From Prevotella sp. (GTDB taxonomy: Bacteria > Bacteroidota > Bacteroidia > Bacteroidales > Bacteroidaceae): DNA of 32,131 nucleotides. Of the stretch, positions 10,671-17,962 are shown one piece after another. The number at the start of each line of letters is the position of its first letter. Position 1 is the stretch's first letter. Under the pieces are notes generated by a model that saw only the letters and a list, made by a program, of their open reading frames with translations, was not told where the DNA came from and did not search any database. The position numbers and the translations under genes were made by a program. The stretch spans positions 1-32,131 of the forward strand of contig JAFVGN010000025.1 in NCBI GenBank assembly GCA_017474925.1, read 5' to 3'.

Positions 10671-10771
10671 TTTTTCAGAAAAAGACAGCCCAAATATTGA
10701 AATTGGTGTGTCATGATGGTTCTGATATGCCGGTGGTGAGCAATGGTGTCAAGAAAAAAAGCGGCAGACTT

Positions 10772-10844: not shown

Positions 10845-12212
10845 ATGGAACAAGTCTTTAGTTACATTATTAGTCTGGGTGCATCGGTGATGATGCCAAT
10901 CTTGTTTACGATTATCGGCCTGGCTATCGGCCTGAAATTCGGACGTTCGCTGAAATCAGGCCTCTATGTGGGCGTGGGTTTTGTGGGTCTGGGCATTGTG
11001 ACAGCGCTGCTCACAACAAACTTCGGTGGACCATTGAGTGAGATTTCCCTGTTGTACGACCTTCAGCTGAAAGTGTTTGACATGGGCTGGCCTGCCGCTG
11101 CCGCTGTGGCATACAACACGGCAGTGGGAGCGTTGATCATCCCCATCTGCCTGGGAGTGAACTTCCTGTTGCTCATAACGGGATGCACCCGTACGGTGAA
11201 CATCGACCTGTGGAACTACTGGCACTTTGCATTCATCGGTGCCGTGGCTTACTTCGTGATGGGCGAGTCACTGGCATGGGGCTATTTTGCTGCTATCGTG
11301 TGCTATATCGTCACGCTGGTCATGGCAGACTTGACGGCCGAGAAGTTCCAGGAGTATTATCCCGAGTGGCAGGGCATCTCGATTCCCCAGCCGTTCTGTC
11401 AGAGCTTTGTACCCTTTGCCCTGGTTATCGGCAAGGCTCTGGACAAAATACCCGGCTTTGAAAAGCTGAACATTGATGCCGAGGGCATGAAGAAGAAATT
11501 CGGTGTGATGGGCGAGCCGCTCATCTTGGGTGTCATCGTGGGATGCCTTATCGGTGCATTGGCCCAGTTGGACATCAAGAAGGTGCTGTTCCTTGGTGTG
11601 ACGATGGGTGCCGTGATGGAGCTGATACCGCGTATTACCTCTTTGTTCATAGAAGGCTTGAAACCCATTGCAGAGAAGACGCAGGAGGTGGTGAAGAAGA
11701 AGTTCAACGGCAAAAAGGTATATATCGGCATGTCTCCTGCTGTGGTCATTGGTCATCCGACGACGCTGGTAGTCAGTCTGTTGCTCATACCAGTCGCCTT
11801 AGGACTGGCTGTGGTGTTGCCCGGCAACCAGTTCCTTCCCCTGGCTTCGCTGGCCGGCATGTTCTACTTGTTCCCCATGGTGCTGCCATTCACGAAGGGC
11901 AATGTGGTGAAGACGTTCATCATCGGTCTTGTGGCCTTGGCCATCGGTCTTTATTTTGTCACCGACATGGCCAGTGCCTTCACACAGGCTGCCCATACGG
12001 TGTTTGAGCAGACAGGCGACAAGGCTGCCGATATTCCTGTAGGTTTCGAAGGCGGTGCGCTGGACTTTGCCTCAAGTCTCTTCGGTTGGGTCATCTTCAA
12101 ATGTGTGGCTTATCTGAAGTGGATTGGTGCAGGCGTACTGACCGTCATCACGTTGGGTATGGTGGTGTGGAACCGCCAGCGTATAGCCAAGCAAAATAAG
12201 GAAAACAAATAA
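10845..12212 (+). CDS. orphan PTS galactitol-type EIIC permease (GatC-like)
   Basis: A 455-residue membrane protein that resembles E. coli GatC along its whole length. Shared landmarks are GVGFVGLGIV, FDMGWPAAAAVAYNTAVGALIIP, TRTVNIDLWNYWH, KKFGVMGEPLILG, VMELIPRI, GLKPIAEK and VVLPGNQFLPL. In the classical system EIIC moves galactitol while EIIA and EIIB phosphorylate it. Neither EIIA, EIIB, EI nor HPr is in this window, and the phylum generally lacks a sugar PTS, so this is probably a phosphorylation-independent carrier. It starts the operon with kduI (15-base gap), which suggests a uronate or related substrate. The frame extends upstream to 10743, but that part crosses the promoter, so ATG 10845 is chosen. 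Family is firm; substrate and mechanism are open. Confidence 0.88.
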   Translation: MEQVFSYIISLGASVMMPILFTIIGLAIGLKFGRSLKSGLYVGVGFVGLGIVTALLTTNFGGPLSEISLLYDLQLKVFDMGWPAAAAVAYNTAVGALIIPICLGVNFLLLITGCTRTVNIDLWNYWHFAFIGAVAYFVMGESLAWGYFAAIVCYIVTLVMADLTAEKFQEYYPEWQGISIPQPFCQSFVPFALVIGKALDKIPGFEKLNIDAEGMKKKFGVMGEPLILGVIVGCLIGALAQLDIKKVLFLGVTMGAVMELIPRITSLFIEGLKPIAEKTQEVVKKKFNGKKVYIGMSPAVVIGHPTTLVVSLLLIPVALGLAVVLPGNQFLPLASLAGMFYLFPMVLPFTKGNVVKTFIIGLVALAIGLYFVTDMASAFTQAAHTVFEQTGDKAADIPVGFEGGALDFASSLFGWVIFKCVAYLKWIGAGVLTVITLGMVVWNRQRIAKQNKENK

Positions 12213-12227
12213 ACAACAAATAGGATT

Positions 12228-13202
12228 ATGAAAAAACAAGTATTAAGCTTATTAATGATTATGAGTTCATTATCTATGTCTGCCCAGCAGGATGTGAAGT
12301 TCCAAACGGCCTGTCATCCTGAAGACGTGAAACATTATGACACAAAGACTTTGCGCGAACGTTTCGTTATGGAGAAAGTGATGGAAGCTGACAAAATCCA
12401 CCTGACCTATTCTCACTACGACCGTTTTATTTTCGGTGGTGCCATGCCCGTACACAAGACCCTGAAGCTGGAAAACTTCCTGGAACTGGGACTGGACGTA
12501 GATCCAGGCATCAAAGAGAAGTACTTCCTCTACAACCGTGAGCTGGGTGTCGTCAACTGTGGTGGTGGCGACGGTGTGGTCATTGTCGACGGCAAGGAGT
12601 ATGCCTTGTCTCCCAAAGAGGCTCTTTACATTGGCCGCGGACACATAGCTAAGGATAAGGACGTGAACAAGGTAGTGGAATTCCGCTCGAAGGATGCGAA
12701 GAATCCTGCCAAGTTCTATTTGAATTCTGCAACAGCCCACCAGCATTACAAGACCCAGTGGATAACGCTTGACGGCCGTAAGGGTTCGCTGAAGGCAGCC
12801 GTATGGGGACCAGTAGGATCGTTGGAGGAATGCAACAACCGTACCGTTTACAAACTGATAGTCAATGACGTGCTTGAGGAGGGTCCCTGTCAGTTGCAGC
12901 TGGGTCTGACCCAGTTGAATCCCGGTGCAGCATGGAATACCATGCCGCCTCACACCCACGGTCGTCGTATTGAGGCCTATTATTACTTTAACCTGCCTCA
13001 GGAGCAGACCATTGCCCACATTATGGGTGAGCCGCAGGAGAGCCGTGTGGTATGGCTGCACAACGAGCAGGCCATCATGTCGCCAGAATGGAGTATGCAT
13101 GCTGCAGCAGGTACCTATTACTATACTTTTATCTGGGGTATGGCTGGCGAGAATCTCTATTACAATGACAAAGATAACATTCCCGTCATTGACATTAAGT
13201 AA
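12228..13202 (+). CDS. kduI: 5-keto-4-deoxyuronate isomerase with signal peptide
   Basis: KduI converts 5-keto-4-deoxyuronate (DKI) from pectin or glycosaminoglycan breakdown to 2,5-diketo-3-deoxygluconate (DKII). The 324-residue product matches the family from residue 25 on: [50 protein letters not shown] and [12 protein letters not shown]. The Zn ligands are H242, H244, E249 and H291. Residues 1-19 ([19 protein letters not shown]) form a typical Sec signal with an SMSA cleavage site, which is unusual because KduI is normally cytoplasmic. An internal ATG at codon 17 could give a cytoplasmic form, but the upstream codons look like a genuine signal. It sits between the EIIC-like permease and an MFS hexuronate-type carrier, fitting pectin or uronate use. 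Confidence 0.93.
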
Positions 13203-13235: not shown

Positions 13236-14687
13236 ATGGCTCCTGTACAAACTGCAAAAATGTCCAACTTCCGTTGGGTCATCTGTGCGTTGCTGTTTTT
13301 GGCAACCACTGTCAACTACATGGACCGTCAGGTCTTGTCGCTAACCTGGAAGGACTTTATCGCTCCTGAATTCCATTGGACGGATGCCGACTATGGTACC
13401 ATCACTGGATTTTTCTCTTTATTCTATGCTATTGCAAACCTTTTTGCCGGTAAGTTCATTGACTGGATGGGCACCAAGAAAGGTTATCTTATTGCCATCT
13501 TCGTATGGTCGACGGGTGCTGTCCTGCATGCCGGATGCGGTTGGGCAGCCATGACCTATGAAGGCTACGACTCCGTGGCACAGTTAGGTCAGCTGACGGG
13601 TGATGCCGCTGTGGCCATTGCAACTGTATCGGTATGGCTCTTCCTGAGCTGCCGCCTGATTCTGGCAGTTGGTGAGGCAGGTAACTTCCCTGCAGCCATC
13701 AAGGCTACGGCAGAGTACTTCCCTGCCAAGGACCGTGCGTTTTCTACCTCTATCTTCAATAGCGGTGCATCGGTAGGTGCATTGGCAGCTCCCGCTACCA
13801 TTCCCTTGCTGGCACGTGCATGGGGCTGGGAGATGGCGTTCATCATCATCGGTGTGTTAGGTTACATTTGGATGGGACTTTGGATGTGGGCCTATGACAA
13901 ACCCCGTAAGAACAAATACGTCAATCAGGCTGAGTTGAACTACATCGAACAGGATAGTGACCTGGCTGAAGTCCAGGACCGTGATGCCGTGAAGGAGGAA
14001 AAGAGCATCCCGTTCTTCAAGTGCTTCTCCTACAAGCAGACTTGGGCATTCCTTGTCGGCAAGTTCATGACTGATGGCGTATGGTGGTTCTTCCTGTTCT
14101 GGGCTCCTGCCTACTTCTCTGACCAATATGGCTACACCACCGACTCGGGTATGGGTATTGCCCTGATTTTCACACTTTACCTCATTGTGACTGTTCTGAG
14201 CATCGGTGGCGGCTATCTGCCTAAGTATTTCGTTGAGAAAAAAGGTATGAATCCGTACTTAGGTCGTATGCGTGCCATGTTTATCTTTGCTTGTTTCCCT
14301 GTGTTGGGTCTGTTTGCCCAGCCCATGGGTGCCTATAGTGCCTGGTGGCCTGCTATTTTGATTGGTCTGCTGGGTGCTGGACACCAAGCATGGTCGGCTA
14401 ATCTGTTCTCGACCATTGGCGACATGTTCCCCAAGTCAACCATCGGAACGATTGTCGGATTGGGAACCATGACGGGCGGTCTGGGCTCTATGGCCATTAA
14501 TATGGGTTCAGGACAGTTCTTCACATGGGCTGCTGATCAGGGTGAGGCTTTCTCGTTCTTCGGTTTCGAAGGCAAGCCTGCTGCCTATATGGTCGTGTTC
14601 TGTATCTGTGCTGTGGCCTACCTGATTGGCTGGTGTATCATGAAGGCATTGGTGCCGAAATACAAGCCCATTACGTTGGAAGACTAA
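13236..14687 (+). CDS. MFS hexuronate-type transporter (ExuT/ACS family)
   Basis: A 483-residue major facilitator with 12 predicted helices. The first helix ends with TTVNYMDRQVLSLTWKDF, which is typical of the anion:cation symporter family (ExuT, GudP, DgoT). LILAVGEAGNFPAAIKATAEYFP in helix 4 and the loop after it is another hallmark of hexuronate and hexonate carriers. A second ATG at codon 9 (MSNFRW) is an alternative start. The gene follows kduI by 33 bases and ends in the terminator at 14710-14738, closing a three-gene operon. The likely cargo is galacturonate, glucuronate or a product of KduI; this is inferred from family and neighbours. Confidence 0.9.
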   Translation: MAPVQTAKMSNFRWVICALLFLATTVNYMDRQVLSLTWKDFIAPEFHWTDADYGTITGFFSLFYAIANLFAGKFIDWMGTKKGYLIAIFVWSTGAVLHAGCGWAAMTYEGYDSVAQLGQLTGDAAVAIATVSVWLFLSCRLILAVGEAGNFPAAIKATAEYFPAKDRAFSTSIFNSGASVGALAAPATIPLLARAWGWEMAFIIIGVLGYIWMGLWMWAYDKPRKNKYVNQAELNYIEQDSDLAEVQDRDAVKEEKSIPFFKCFSYKQTWAFLVGKFMTDGVWWFFLFWAPAYFSDQYGYTTDSGMGIALIFTLYLIVTVLSIGGGYLPKYFVEKKGMNPYLGRMRAMFIFACFPVLGLFAQPMGAYSAWWPAILIGLLGAGHQAWSANLFSTIGDMFPKSTIGTIVGLGTMTGGLGSMAINMGSGQFFTWAADQGEAFSFFGFEGKPAAYMVVFCICAVAYLIGWCIMKALVPKYKPITLED

Positions 14688-14768: not shown

Positions 14769-14799
14769 TTTGTATTTAGCCCGAATTGTATTATCTTTG
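14769..14799 (+). promoter_or_regulatory. promoter of the sensor-GH31 unit
   Basis: TTTG at 14769-14772, a 19-base spacer, then TATCTTTG at 14792-14799. The ATG at 14831 is 31 bases after the box. Confidence 0.75.
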
Positions 14800-14830
14800 C
14801 AGCAACCAAATTTTAAATACTACTATTCCG

Positions 14831-17800
14831 ATGACACGTAAAACCTTTTTATCCATCGCTATATTGCTCTTTTCTTTGGCTGTAGAGGCTAGCATCCCTG
14901 AAATCAAATTCCGTCGGCTGGATACTCGCAATGGCTTGTCAAACTCCCAGATAAACTGTGTCTTTCGCGATTCTCATGGCTTTGTATGGATAGGCACTGC
15001 ATACGGACTGAACCGCTATGACGGCTATCGCGTGAAGACATTCTTCTCAAATATGCGTGATACGACGACCATGCGCGACAACTACACCGACCAGATTATG
15101 GAGGACATAGACGGACGGTTGTGGCTGAAACAGGGTATGAACCATTGTGTTTACGATCCTGTTACGGAAAAGTTCGAGCGCAATCCAAACCGTTTGATAG
15201 AGAAGTTTATCAAAGGGCACGGTCCCATGGAGCGTATGTATATTGACAGCAAGAAAAACTTCTGGTTCAAGTTCTACGACGAGGGTATTGTGTTCTATAA
15301 TCCCCAGACAAAGAAAACCAGCGAGTTCAAATTAGGCTACGGTCCAAACGAGTTCAAATCGCACTATGGCATAGCGGCAATCGACAACTATAAGAACGGT
15401 ATTGCCGTGGTAACCTATACAGGAGAACTGGTCTTCCTGAATGGCGAGAAAGGTGTCATCGAACTCGAGGACACAAGGATGAAAGAGTCTGGTGCCCAGC
15501 AGAGTCAGAACTATAAGCTTAAAATAGATGAACAGGGCAACTACTGGGTGATAGCCGAGCTGTTTACTTGTGTTTACATGAAACAGGAGCAACGATGGTA
15601 CAACACTTTGCCGGAACTGTTGCGTGCGTGGGGTATCGAGAACGTTCCTGATGATATGCAGGTGTGGGACATTGTGATAGACCGTCATGGATGGCTGTGG
15701 GTGGCTACTGATCATTTGGGACTTTTCGTCATTGATCCGAAGGAACGTCAGATGCGCCAGTTGGTGAATAATAAGTTCGACGAGTCAAGCATCAGTGACA
15801 ATACTCCCCGTCAGATTTATATTGACCATTTGGGGATAGTTTGGATTTCCACCTACAAGAACGGTGTCAATGAATACAAGGAGGGTCTTGCCAGCATTAA
15901 GAGTCTGGAGAAACTGGGCGATATCAACACAGTAGTGGAAGACAAATATGGTAATTATTGGCTGGGAAGCAATACCGATGGTATCATCGTCTACGACCCC
16001 AAGACCGACGAGATAGTCAGTCACTACACCAAGGATAACAGCCCGATGATGGGTAACATCATGGTGGGCTCGTGCTTAGCCAGCGACGGTAGTATCTGGT
16101 TTGGCTCATATAATGGAGGACTGGTGCGCTGTATCCCTTCCAAGGAAGATCCCCAGAAGGCCACCATTGTCAACTGGCGTTCGACAGGAGATCCTGAGGG
16201 ACTTTCCACGAATAATGTGTGGAGTGTCACGGAGGACAAATGGCATCGTATTTGGTTAGCTACCTTGGGCGGTGGTATCCAGATGCTTGATTTGAAGACG
16301 GGAAAATTCCGCACATGGAACCAGAATAACTCAGGCTTGCCCAGTAACTATATGTCCAGTGTGTGGTGGATTAAGAAAGGATGGCTGATGGTAGGTACCA
16401 GCTGGTTCTGGTGCTTTGTCAATCCTGTGACAGGAAAAGTTGCCAACCGTGTGCTGCCGGAAACGGACTATCTTCCCTCGAATGTGGGCTCGACTAGTTG
16501 TGCCATAGAGGATTCGCGTGGACTGATCTGGCAGGGTTCTGCATCAGGAGCAACGGTCTATGACCAGCGTACCAAGCGCGTCTGGTTGCTTGACATGACA
16601 CATGGTCTCTTTGGTTCCAGCGTCTGCTCAATCATAGAAGACAAGGAACATACCATGTGGGTGGTCACTGACCATGGCGTGTCGAAAATCCTTCCTGAGA
16701 AACAAGAGGATGACACATGGGCATTCACCGTACGTAGCTATAACAATCGCGACGGACTGCAACAGGAAACCTACAATCAGCGTTCAACCTGTCTGACGCA
16801 CGATGGCCTGATATTGATTGGCGGACAGGGGGGACTGGATATCATCAATCCTAAGGCACTATCGGATGCGCAAAGTAAGGAACGCCCCATATTCAGTGGC
16901 TTGCAGTTATTTGATACTGATGTTCCTGTCGACAGGGAAATCGATGGCCGTGTCATCTTGGACGAGGCTCTTGACGTGTGCCGCGAGATTACCTTGCGCT
17001 ATAACGACCAGTTTACCATCCAACTGGCAAGCGATGCTGGTATCATCAACAACGGTAAGCGCTTTGTCTATACGCTGGAGGGCTTTAACGATAACTGGGT
17101 TAAGACCTCGGAACTGAATCCTAACATTACCTATAACTCGCTACGTGCCGGAAGCTATACGCTGCACGTGAGGATGCTTAACGATGACGGAACGTTTGGT
17201 GATGAAGAATCGACGTTGGAGATAACTATCCAGCCTGGTTTCTGGCGTACACGTTGGATGATAATGCTCTACTTGCTGGCCATAGCTGCCGCTGCGTGGT
17301 GGTGGCGTAAGCGATATATTAAGCGCCATAGCTTGCGTATGCAGGCAGAGACACTCCAGCGTGAGACGGAGAAGATGCAGTGGATGAGCGAGATGCGTAT
17401 GCAGATGATGTCTGAACAAGCTGCTTCCGCTTCTGCTGCTCCCAGTCCCAGTGAGGTCGTGCCTCAGCCAGAAGTTCTTCAACTGAATATGGTAGAGGAT
17501 GACTTGGTAAATGCCGTAAAGACCATCTGCAAGAATTTTGCAGCTACTCCGGAGGGTCAGAAAGCTAAAGTGAACTGCCGTTCGATAGTCGAAGAGATGA
17601 TGGTACGTTTCGATCATGATGAGCTGACCAAAGCCATGAATATCCTGCTTTCAAATTCGGTCAAATTCTCACCGGGCAATTGCCAGATTTCCGTCAATCT
17701 GGGACGTGGTGAGGATAACATGGCTATTGTCCAGGTTGCAGACAACAGTATAGGAATCCGTGATGAGTATAAGGCTACAGCTTTTGACCCCATGGTGGGG

Positions 17801-17962
17801 AGTGAAGGTATCGGACTGGATAAAGTGAAGAATATTATTGTGGCTCATGGTGGTTCTATCAGGTTGGAAGACAATCCTGGCGGTGGTACGGTCTTTATTT
17901 TCTCGTTGCCCATGGAACCGGAAATAGTCATTGAGGACGCTGTCTTGATGGACGAAGAATAG
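14831..17962 (+). CDS. Reg_prop/Y_Y_Y sensor with degenerate histidine-kinase domain
   Basis: A 1043-residue membrane sensor built like the periplasmic half of Bacteroides hybrid two-component systems. After a signal peptide (1-20) come about nine Reg_prop beta-propeller units, for example VWIGTAYGLNRYDG (52), WLWVATDHLGLFVID (288), YWLGSNTDGIIVYD (376), IWLATLGGGIQMLD (474) and ILIGGQGGLDIIN (661). A Y_Y_Y domain (about 735-800) and one membrane helix (808-825) follow. The cytoplasmic part is short: an Ala/Ser/Pro-rich linker (862-882) stands where the HisKA domain with the phosphoacceptor His should be. An ATPase-like domain follows with an N-box (LLSNSVKFSP), a G1 box changed to DNSIGI and a G2 box GSEGIGL. 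Receiver and AraC domains are absent. It is co-directional with the GH31 gene 58 bases downstream. Ligand unknown. Confidence 0.88.
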   Translation: MTRKTFLSIAILLFSLAVEASIPEIKFRRLDTRNGLSNSQINCVFRDSHGFVWIGTAYGLNRYDGYRVKTFFSNMRDTTTMRDNYTDQIMEDIDGRLWLKQGMNHCVYDPVTEKFERNPNRLIEKFIKGHGPMERMYIDSKKNFWFKFYDEGIVFYNPQTKKTSEFKLGYGPNEFKSHYGIAAIDNYKNGIAVVTYTGELVFLNGEKGVIELEDTRMKESGAQQSQNYKLKIDEQGNYWVIAELFTCVYMKQEQRWYNTLPELLRAWGIENVPDDMQVWDIVIDRHGWLWVATDHLGLFVIDPKERQMRQLVNNKFDESSISDNTPRQIYIDHLGIVWISTYKNGVNEYKEGLASIKSLEKLGDINTVVEDKYGNYWLGSNTDGIIVYDPKTDEIVSHYTKDNSPMMGNIMVGSCLASDGSIWFGSYNGGLVRCIPSKEDPQKATIVNWRSTGDPEGLSTNNVWSVTEDKWHRIWLATLGGGIQMLDLKTGKFRTWNQNNSGLPSNYMSSVWWIKKGWLMVGTSWFWCFVNPVTGKVANRVLPETDYLPSNVGSTSCAIEDSRGLIWQGSASGATVYDQRTKRVWLLDMTHGLFGSSVCSIIEDKEHTMWVVTDHGVSKILPEKQEDDTWAFTVRSYNNRDGLQQETYNQRSTCLTHDGLILIGGQGGLDIINPKALSDAQSKERPIFSGLQLFDTDVPVDREIDGRVILDEALDVCREITLRYNDQFTIQLASDAGIINNGKRFVYTLEGFNDNWVKTSELNPNITYNSLRAGSYTLHVRMLNDDGTFGDEESTLEITIQPGFWRTRWMIMLYLLAIAAAAWWWRKRYIKRHSLRMQAETLQRETEKMQWMSEMRMQMMSEQAASASAAPSPSEVVPQPEVLQLNMVEDDLVNAVKTICKNFAATPEGQKAKVNCRSIVEEMMVRFDHDELTKAMNILLSNSVKFSPGNCQISVNLGRGEDNMAIVQVADNSIGIRDEYKATAFDPMVGSEGIGLDKVKNIIVAHGGSIRLEDNPGGGTVFIFSLPMEPEIVIEDAVLMDEE

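Follow-up and report, generated by a model that had tools for sequence, protein, structure and literature searches.

In many Bacteroidaceae, the isomerase KduI carries a predicted Sec signal peptide and is encoded directly downstream of a permease of the EIIC-GAT type. Judged from the sequences compared here, the predicted export of KduI and the linkage of its gene to that for EIIC are both very likely. KduI is regarded as a purely intracellular enzyme, and the exported protein appears to be a new form of a known enzyme and pathway. We consider it probable that exported KduI makes DKII in the periplasm, that a PTS-free EIIC imports DKII, and that reduction follows inside. In the proposed mechanism, Sec would export KduI and signal peptidase I would cut between A19 and Q20, leaving the mature enzyme soluble in the periplasm. 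There, unsaturated uronate set free by, for example, GH105 or GH88 hydrolases would open to 5-keto-4-deoxyuronate (DKI), which the enzyme would turn into DKII. The permease would then import DKII as a secondary carrier, and a cytoplasmic DhuD-type reductase, KDG kinase and Eda would complete the route.

With slightly less confidence, we regard the two genes as a module, in which an isomerase outside the inner membrane, often the sole KduI, is joined with a PTS permease domain turned PTS-free carrier. If the module is real, the whole unsaturated-uronate pathway would run via extracytoplasmic isomerization and DKII import in the many Bacteroidaceae where the exported copy is the only one. A textbook step in pectin and glycosaminoglycan breakdown would thus be relocated in abundant gut and rumen bacteria, orphan EIIC permeases would have a function in bacteria without a PTS, and DKII would be a transported intermediate.

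The KduI reading frame and its predicted signal peptide

The window, by which we mean the whole 32,131-nucleotide stretch of Prevotella sp. DNA analyzed, contains a full-length KduI reading frame of 324 codons (12228-13202, + strand; Table 1). Its product has the Pfam KduI domain and scores above the equivalog cut-off of NF002091 (250 bits). The NF002091 match begins only at residue 24, and that to the closest solved relative by sequence, PDB 9kd0, at residue 21, so the first 20 residues or so are an extension. The preliminary description had called the protein a complete isomerase with four Zn ligands, and this holds: H242, H244, E249 and H291, which we take to be the Zn ligands of KduI, are all present, and these positions are kept in 98/98, 97/98, 98/98 and 98/98, respectively, of the exported sequences in the larger tree described below. 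By sequence, the window protein is a KduI with its catalytic residues intact. Structure prediction was uninformative (mean pLDDT 33.6 and 40.3), and a fold search was used solely to read the titles of PDB entries that the sequence comparison had identified.

Table 1. Features of the kduI region, in window coordinates
Feature	Position	Strand	Basis
Orphan PTS EIIC-GAT permease	10845..12212	+	PF03611 235 bits (above cut-off); TIGR00827 375.6 bits, below cut-off 542.2
Sec signal peptide of KduI, residues 1-19, cleavage A19|Q20 (predicted)	12228..12284	+	Sequence; pattern kept in relatives
Mature KduI (5-dehydro-4-deoxy-D-glucuronate isomerase), 305 aa	12285..13199	+	NF002091 342.8 bits; Pfam KduI; PDB 9kd0 397 bits
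His242 codon, presumed Zn ligand	12951..12953	+	Sequence; kept in relatives
His244 codon, presumed Zn ligand	12957..12959	+	Sequence; kept in relatives
Glu249 codon, presumed Zn ligand	12972..12974	+	Sequence; kept in relatives
His291 codon, presumed Zn ligand	13098..13100	+	Sequence; kept in relatives
MFS transporter (optional partner)	13236..14687	+	Pfam MFS_1; 33 nt after kduI

According to their titles, PDB entries 9kd0 and 9kcz, both released 2025-10-29, are KduI2 and KduI1 of Bacteroides ovatus, for GAG metabolism; our literature search found no paper on 9kd0. KduI2 resembles the exported proteins. One of them (L139) aligns from its Q20 to residue 2 of the 9kd0 chain (646 bits), with 280 of 287 residues identical by hand count from the alignment. 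The alignment starts at the predicted mature +1 residue of L139, so the construct was evidently made without the signal. The cytoplasmic KduI of Escherichia coli (1x8m), Lactobacillus rhamnosus (7ye3) and B. ovatus (KduI1, 9kcz) belong to the same family, and we take these three to be unexported.

Residues 1-19 of the window protein are Sec-like, having Lys-Lys, a hydrophobic stretch, Ala at -1 and Gln at +1. The features expected of a signal peptidase I substrate, namely, a positive n-region, a hydrophobic core, a small residue at -1 and no lipobox Cys, can all be recognized. The residue at -3, Met, is not ideal; in most relatives this position is occupied by G, V, A, S or I. A scan of a genome collection gave 417 related stretches, the best 80 of which were taken as named loci. 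They are 89-97% identical to the window, titled Prevotella or kin, and many are ruminant-derived. The signal was scored present in 80/80 of these best relatives, which rules out an assembly artefact or a one-off and answers in the affirmative the question raised in the preliminary description, whether the signal is conserved in a clade. Where a named locus has a signal of the same length (60 loci), M1, K2, [AG]19, Q20 and Q21 are each kept in 60/60. Residues 1-19 have a mean identity to the window of 38% in these loci, and the mature part is 95% identical in the 57 of them with equal length. The 19-residue signal described earlier, and with it the prediction of export, is thus supported by a pattern that is kept across the clade while the sequence drifts.

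It would be possible to read the same N-terminus without export, if translation began within the apparent signal or if the hydrophobic N-terminus remained in the cytoplasm. The window does have Met17, the family match starts only at residue 24, and the codon-position pattern is weak in the signal, where third positions account for 696 of 1748 differences versus 5408 of 6530 over core codons 1-196. Because the third-position bias is weak, it is from the kept residues and the open frame that translation of the signal must be proved. However, codon 17 is ATG in only 22 of the 200 loci classed as exported, and on this ground we reject the start at codon 17 that would have undone the earlier claim. 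Moreover, the K2-hydrophobic-[AG]19-QQ pattern is kept, and the signal marks one side of a well-supported branch. We therefore regard lack of export as very improbable.

When applied to 120 cytoplasmic KduI loci as a control, the signal rule matched two, L101 and L113, both of which owe their score to a long extension preceding MKTNY, the conserved start of cytoplasmic KduI. These were assigned to the cytoplasmic class by hand, as L086 and L120, which lack Lys or Arg near the start, were to the exported class. Among the window reading frames, three secreted GH genes and KduI were positive, and 0/7 others. With any Met within the first 60 residues allowed as the start, the rule is loose: 18/95 SDRs and 2/9 aldolases were positive, as were 8/9 members of a cluster taken as TyrRS from the N-terminus. 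The case for export rests for this reason on conservation and the matched cytoplasmic control, not on the score. In one subgroup (L219, L318-L321 and L283), about 10 linker residues (such as QEADRFVGAQHV) separate the signal from the KduI core.

A single clade of predicted exported KduI in Bacteroidaceae

We classed 321 loci: 200 exported, 120 cytoplasmic and one truncated (L170), which was left out. These loci are partly redundant: the named and unnamed sets share records, the window is present as both L001 and L192, and some places were entered twice (e.g., L086/L120 and L083/L124). Distinct sequences number 176 in the exported and 119 in the cytoplasmic class. The fairest set comprises 74 thinned rows (29 exported and 45 cytoplasmic). 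A quick tree of 217 rows had 98 exported and 119 cytoplasmic sequences, the close relatives of the window being thinned to every eighth.

In the 74-row tree, from which the signal was excluded, a single branch parts the 29 exported from the 45 cytoplasmic Bacteroidota KduI with 100/97 support, and the split is present in 99% of 200 bootstrap trees. In the 217-row tree, made from core columns only and likewise excluding the signal, one label change suffices (SH-aLRT 98). Exported sequences scattered at 48-53% identity at first suggested several independent gains of the signal; this is unsupported, one branch being enough. The trees are without an outgroup from other phyla, and we infer a root on the cytoplasmic side.

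Exported members span 13 genus codes in the family of the window. Of 198 genomes sampled across the order, 47 had a match; four of the 44 loci read were exported (L223, L224, L282 and L283), and EIIC is upstream in all four. Of 296 genomes sampled across the phylum, 85 had a match, and the exported class was found in 0/36 loci read. The KduI with a predicted export signal is thus not peculiar to the window but forms a widespread clade in Bacteroidaceae, and the earlier proposal of a periplasmic KduI is supported in that the signal is conserved throughout the family on a single clade. L283, from a genome with another family code of the order (G644), has an exported KduI 92% identical to that of the window, with EIIC upstream, and may reflect either transfer or a mis-binned contig.

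The EIIC-GAT permease upstream and its partners

The window has a row of three genes in which the EIIC stop codon is 15 nt before the start of kduI and an MFS transporter gene follows (Table 1). The EIIC reading frame opens at 10743, and the start at 10845 is likelier because relatives begin MEQVF... The permease shares the PF03611 membrane domain with the EIIC of the galactitol PTS (GatC, TIGR00827). Unlike GatC, it falls below the cut-off of the galactitol-specific TIGR00827 model, and neither HPr nor PTS_IIB was found in any of 27 genomes (0/27 each), which include that of the window and were picked by hand from search tables, not at random; control searches were positive. In the absence of these PTS proteins, the permease is unlikely to act within the phosphotransferase system.

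Neighbor homologues were counted by tblastn with the EIIC of the window. A same-strand EIIC gene lies no more than 3 kb upstream of kduI in 193/200 exported versus 0/120 cytoplasmic loci, or in 95/98 versus 0/119 rows of the larger tree. After thinning, it is directly upstream in 27/29 versus 0/45. The two exceptions in the thinned set are L187, which has only 674 bases of upstream sequence, and L086; L120, a longer stretch of the same place as L086, also has no EIIC. Altogether six of the 200 exported loci are without EIIC nearby (L053, L074, L153, L187, L086 and L120), and the genome of L153 has an EIIC-GAT gene on another contig. The correlation extends to whole genomes. An EIIC-GAT gene is present in 104 of 301 genomes of the family, and 103 of these 104 have KduI. 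Among 91 genomes of this tally with at least one KduI read, 61 have an exported reading and EIIC, and 24 have only a cytoplasmic reading and no EIIC. Another five with only a cytoplasmic reading have EIIC, all of them two-match genomes whose other copy was outside the tally; the remaining reading is of a truncated KduI. An MFS protein is found downstream in 52/98 exported versus 1/119 cytoplasmic rows. Between the two transporters, the EIIC-GAT permease encoded upstream is a likelier carrier of the KduI product than the MFS protein encoded downstream.

Some other features of these neighborhoods were recorded. In one genome, an in-frame TAG interrupts the EIIC-GAT gene next to the exported KduI of L156 (G041:C381:29734-30893), which is possibly a decaying copy of the permease gene. 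The sequence TTTG-N17-23-TANNTTTG, which we take to be a promoter-like pattern of Bacteroidota, occurs 10 times on both strands of the window versus 0.47 expected by shuffling; none of the 10 immediately precedes the EIIC-kduI row on the + strand. At 14786-17962, the window encodes a sensor with Reg_prop, Y_Y_Y and HATPase_c matches, and with no HisKA or response-regulator match (Pfam, E <= 0.001); possibly it is a kinase without a phosphoacceptor domain of its own.

Reductase retention and pathway gene runs

In 17 of the 27 hand-picked genomes, a single KduI of the exported class was found. Sixteen of the 17 genomes are at least 90% complete, and four (G413, G314, G219 and G027) are each in one contig. 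The signal was read directly in 16 (G368 as L219), and EIIC adjoins kduI in 16/16 of these; G394 was placed in the exported class by 90% identity to the window, not by its N-terminus. A DhuD-type reductase is kept in 17/17. With the search of the 27 genomes as positive control, the reductase was found in 0/20 chosen genomes of the same genus without a KduI match (E <= 1e-60). The reductase thus tracks KduI even where the sole KduI is exported. An NADH-dependent reductase must work inside the cell; with the reductase inside and KduI exported, the route would require passage of DKII across the inner membrane.

The position of the reductase gene varies with the form of KduI. In six reductase loci from single-KduI genomes (L323, L324, L326, L329, L330 and L331), kduI is absent within about 1.5 kb (6/6), and in four from two-copy genomes (L322, L325, L327 and L328) a cytoplasmic kduI is adjacent (4/4). 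A reductase is in the locus in 95/120 cytoplasmic versus 12/200 exported cases, two of the 12 being only about 35% identical; at 50% identity or more and within 4 kb, the tree rows give 83/119 versus 8/98. The only reductase match in the genome of the window is on another contig (G000:C57:73703-74503, read as L330), with no kduI within about 1.5 kb on either side. That assembly is 63.65% complete, and its missing cytoplasmic KduI is for that reason weak evidence when taken alone.

A second, cytoplasmic KduI that would make export a side branch was weighed. In the same genus, 76 genomes have a best match in the exported class (E <= 1e-130); 33 of them have two matches and 43 one, many of the genomes being incomplete and the class of the second match having been read in a minority. 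A substitute isomerase of the DhuI type (RpiB family) was also considered: 14 of the 17 single-KduI genomes have one such gene, G457 and G368 have none and G219 has two, a tally that may leave room for some other isomerase.

In three loci from two genomes of one genus (L121, L124 and L125; G009 and G037), genes for a KdgK-like PfkB kinase, dhuD, eda, EIIC and exported kduI are co-directional. In L169, dhuD, DUF4861, EIIC, exported kduI, kinase and eda run in one direction, and in L160 the reductase adjoins kduI, the kinase and eda genes being close by on the opposite strand. Eda scores above its equivalog cut-off (360.9 versus 275 bits). The kinase has KDG-kinase models as top matches, below all their cut-offs, and the reductase matches the NCBIfam gluconate 5-dehydrogenase (462.5 bits, cut-off 369) and is below the KduD cut-off, so that kdgK and dhuD are names by context. 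Taken together, the linkage to EIIC, the retention of the reductase with a sole exported KduI and the gene runs support the earlier suggestion that the adjacent transporter would carry a KduI product.

The genes could serve saturated uronates instead, exported KduI acting mainly on galacturonate and glucuronate to give tagaturonate and fructuronate for import by EIIC or the MFS protein. KduI of E. coli is reported, in the part of the article available, to help convert both substrates (PMC3578941), and the top NCBIfam match of the MFS protein, below cut-off, is a D-galactonate transporter. However, the runs with dhuD, the KdgK-like kinase and eda fit the route through DKI, DKII and KDG, and KduI is accompanied by the DhuD-type reductase even in genomes where the exported copy is alone. 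On this evidence we consider saturated substrates unlikely.

A GH88/105-family hydrolase is divergently encoded upstream of EIIC in 14/200 exported loci, apart from those with pathway runs; Pfam was run on one of the 14 (L131). GH105 enzymes take unsaturated galacturonate off pectin oligosaccharides in Bacteroides, according to the portion of PMC8002723 seen. The window locus has neither a pathway run nor a GH88/105 hydrolase, none being found among its reading frames scanned with Pfam. The divergent neighbor there is a GH36 alpha-galactosidase, and the locus adjoins GH36, GH31 and GH2 genes with no evident pectin PUL. These neighbors, the galactitol family of EIIC-GAT, and inserts in KduI of the window lineage that are absent from cytoplasmic KduI and from about 70% of exported rows would suit a protein serving another compound (galactitol-like or some other keto sugar), with KduI recruited along with EIIC-GAT. 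Against this stand the catalytic residues and the NF002091 score, as well as the pathway runs and reductase retention, and we think it somewhat less likely still than action on saturated uronates.

DKII import by EIIC remains the reading that we prefer, and one of the closest described systems shares its two DKI-route enzymes. This is the kduI-dhuD cluster of Bacteroidaceae, type E (PMC12838403); in the part of that article available, "signal" is absent and "periplasm" occurs once, on Dickeya. Type E has kduI next to dhuD, an arrangement that the window does not have, and most exported loci are without an adjacent reductase. Cytoplasmic-type KduI of Bacteroidota, unlike the exported, is beside a DhuD-type reductase (95/120 loci) and never beside EIIC (0/120). 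In marine Catenovulum, four KduI are tabulated with no signal column for them in the portion seen (PMC7953866), and a term search of the available text of PMC4769552 had no matches. The literature on KduI or galactitol IIC in Bacteroides that we searched, which excludes supplements and most subscription journals, reports no exported KduI or EIIC partner.

A few loci have unusual compositions. G009, a single contig, has two exported-type KduI copies with equal family score (5.3e-130): one (L121) in the kinase-reductase-eda-EIIC-kduI run, the other (L120/L086) without EIIC and in a reading frame that starts MLLVCC, without MKK. At L282:2804-4429, adjoining EIIC and exported kduI, an exported domain that looks GH28-like by eye continues in a single reading frame into the C-terminal half of the SDR reductase, through an assembly join or a true fusion; because its reductase half is joined in this way, L282 was left out of the complete gene runs. 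DUF4861 proteins (L125:10903-12066 and L169:3322-4530) share a run with the reductase, EIIC and exported kduI, and are candidate partners in the release of unsaturated uronides.
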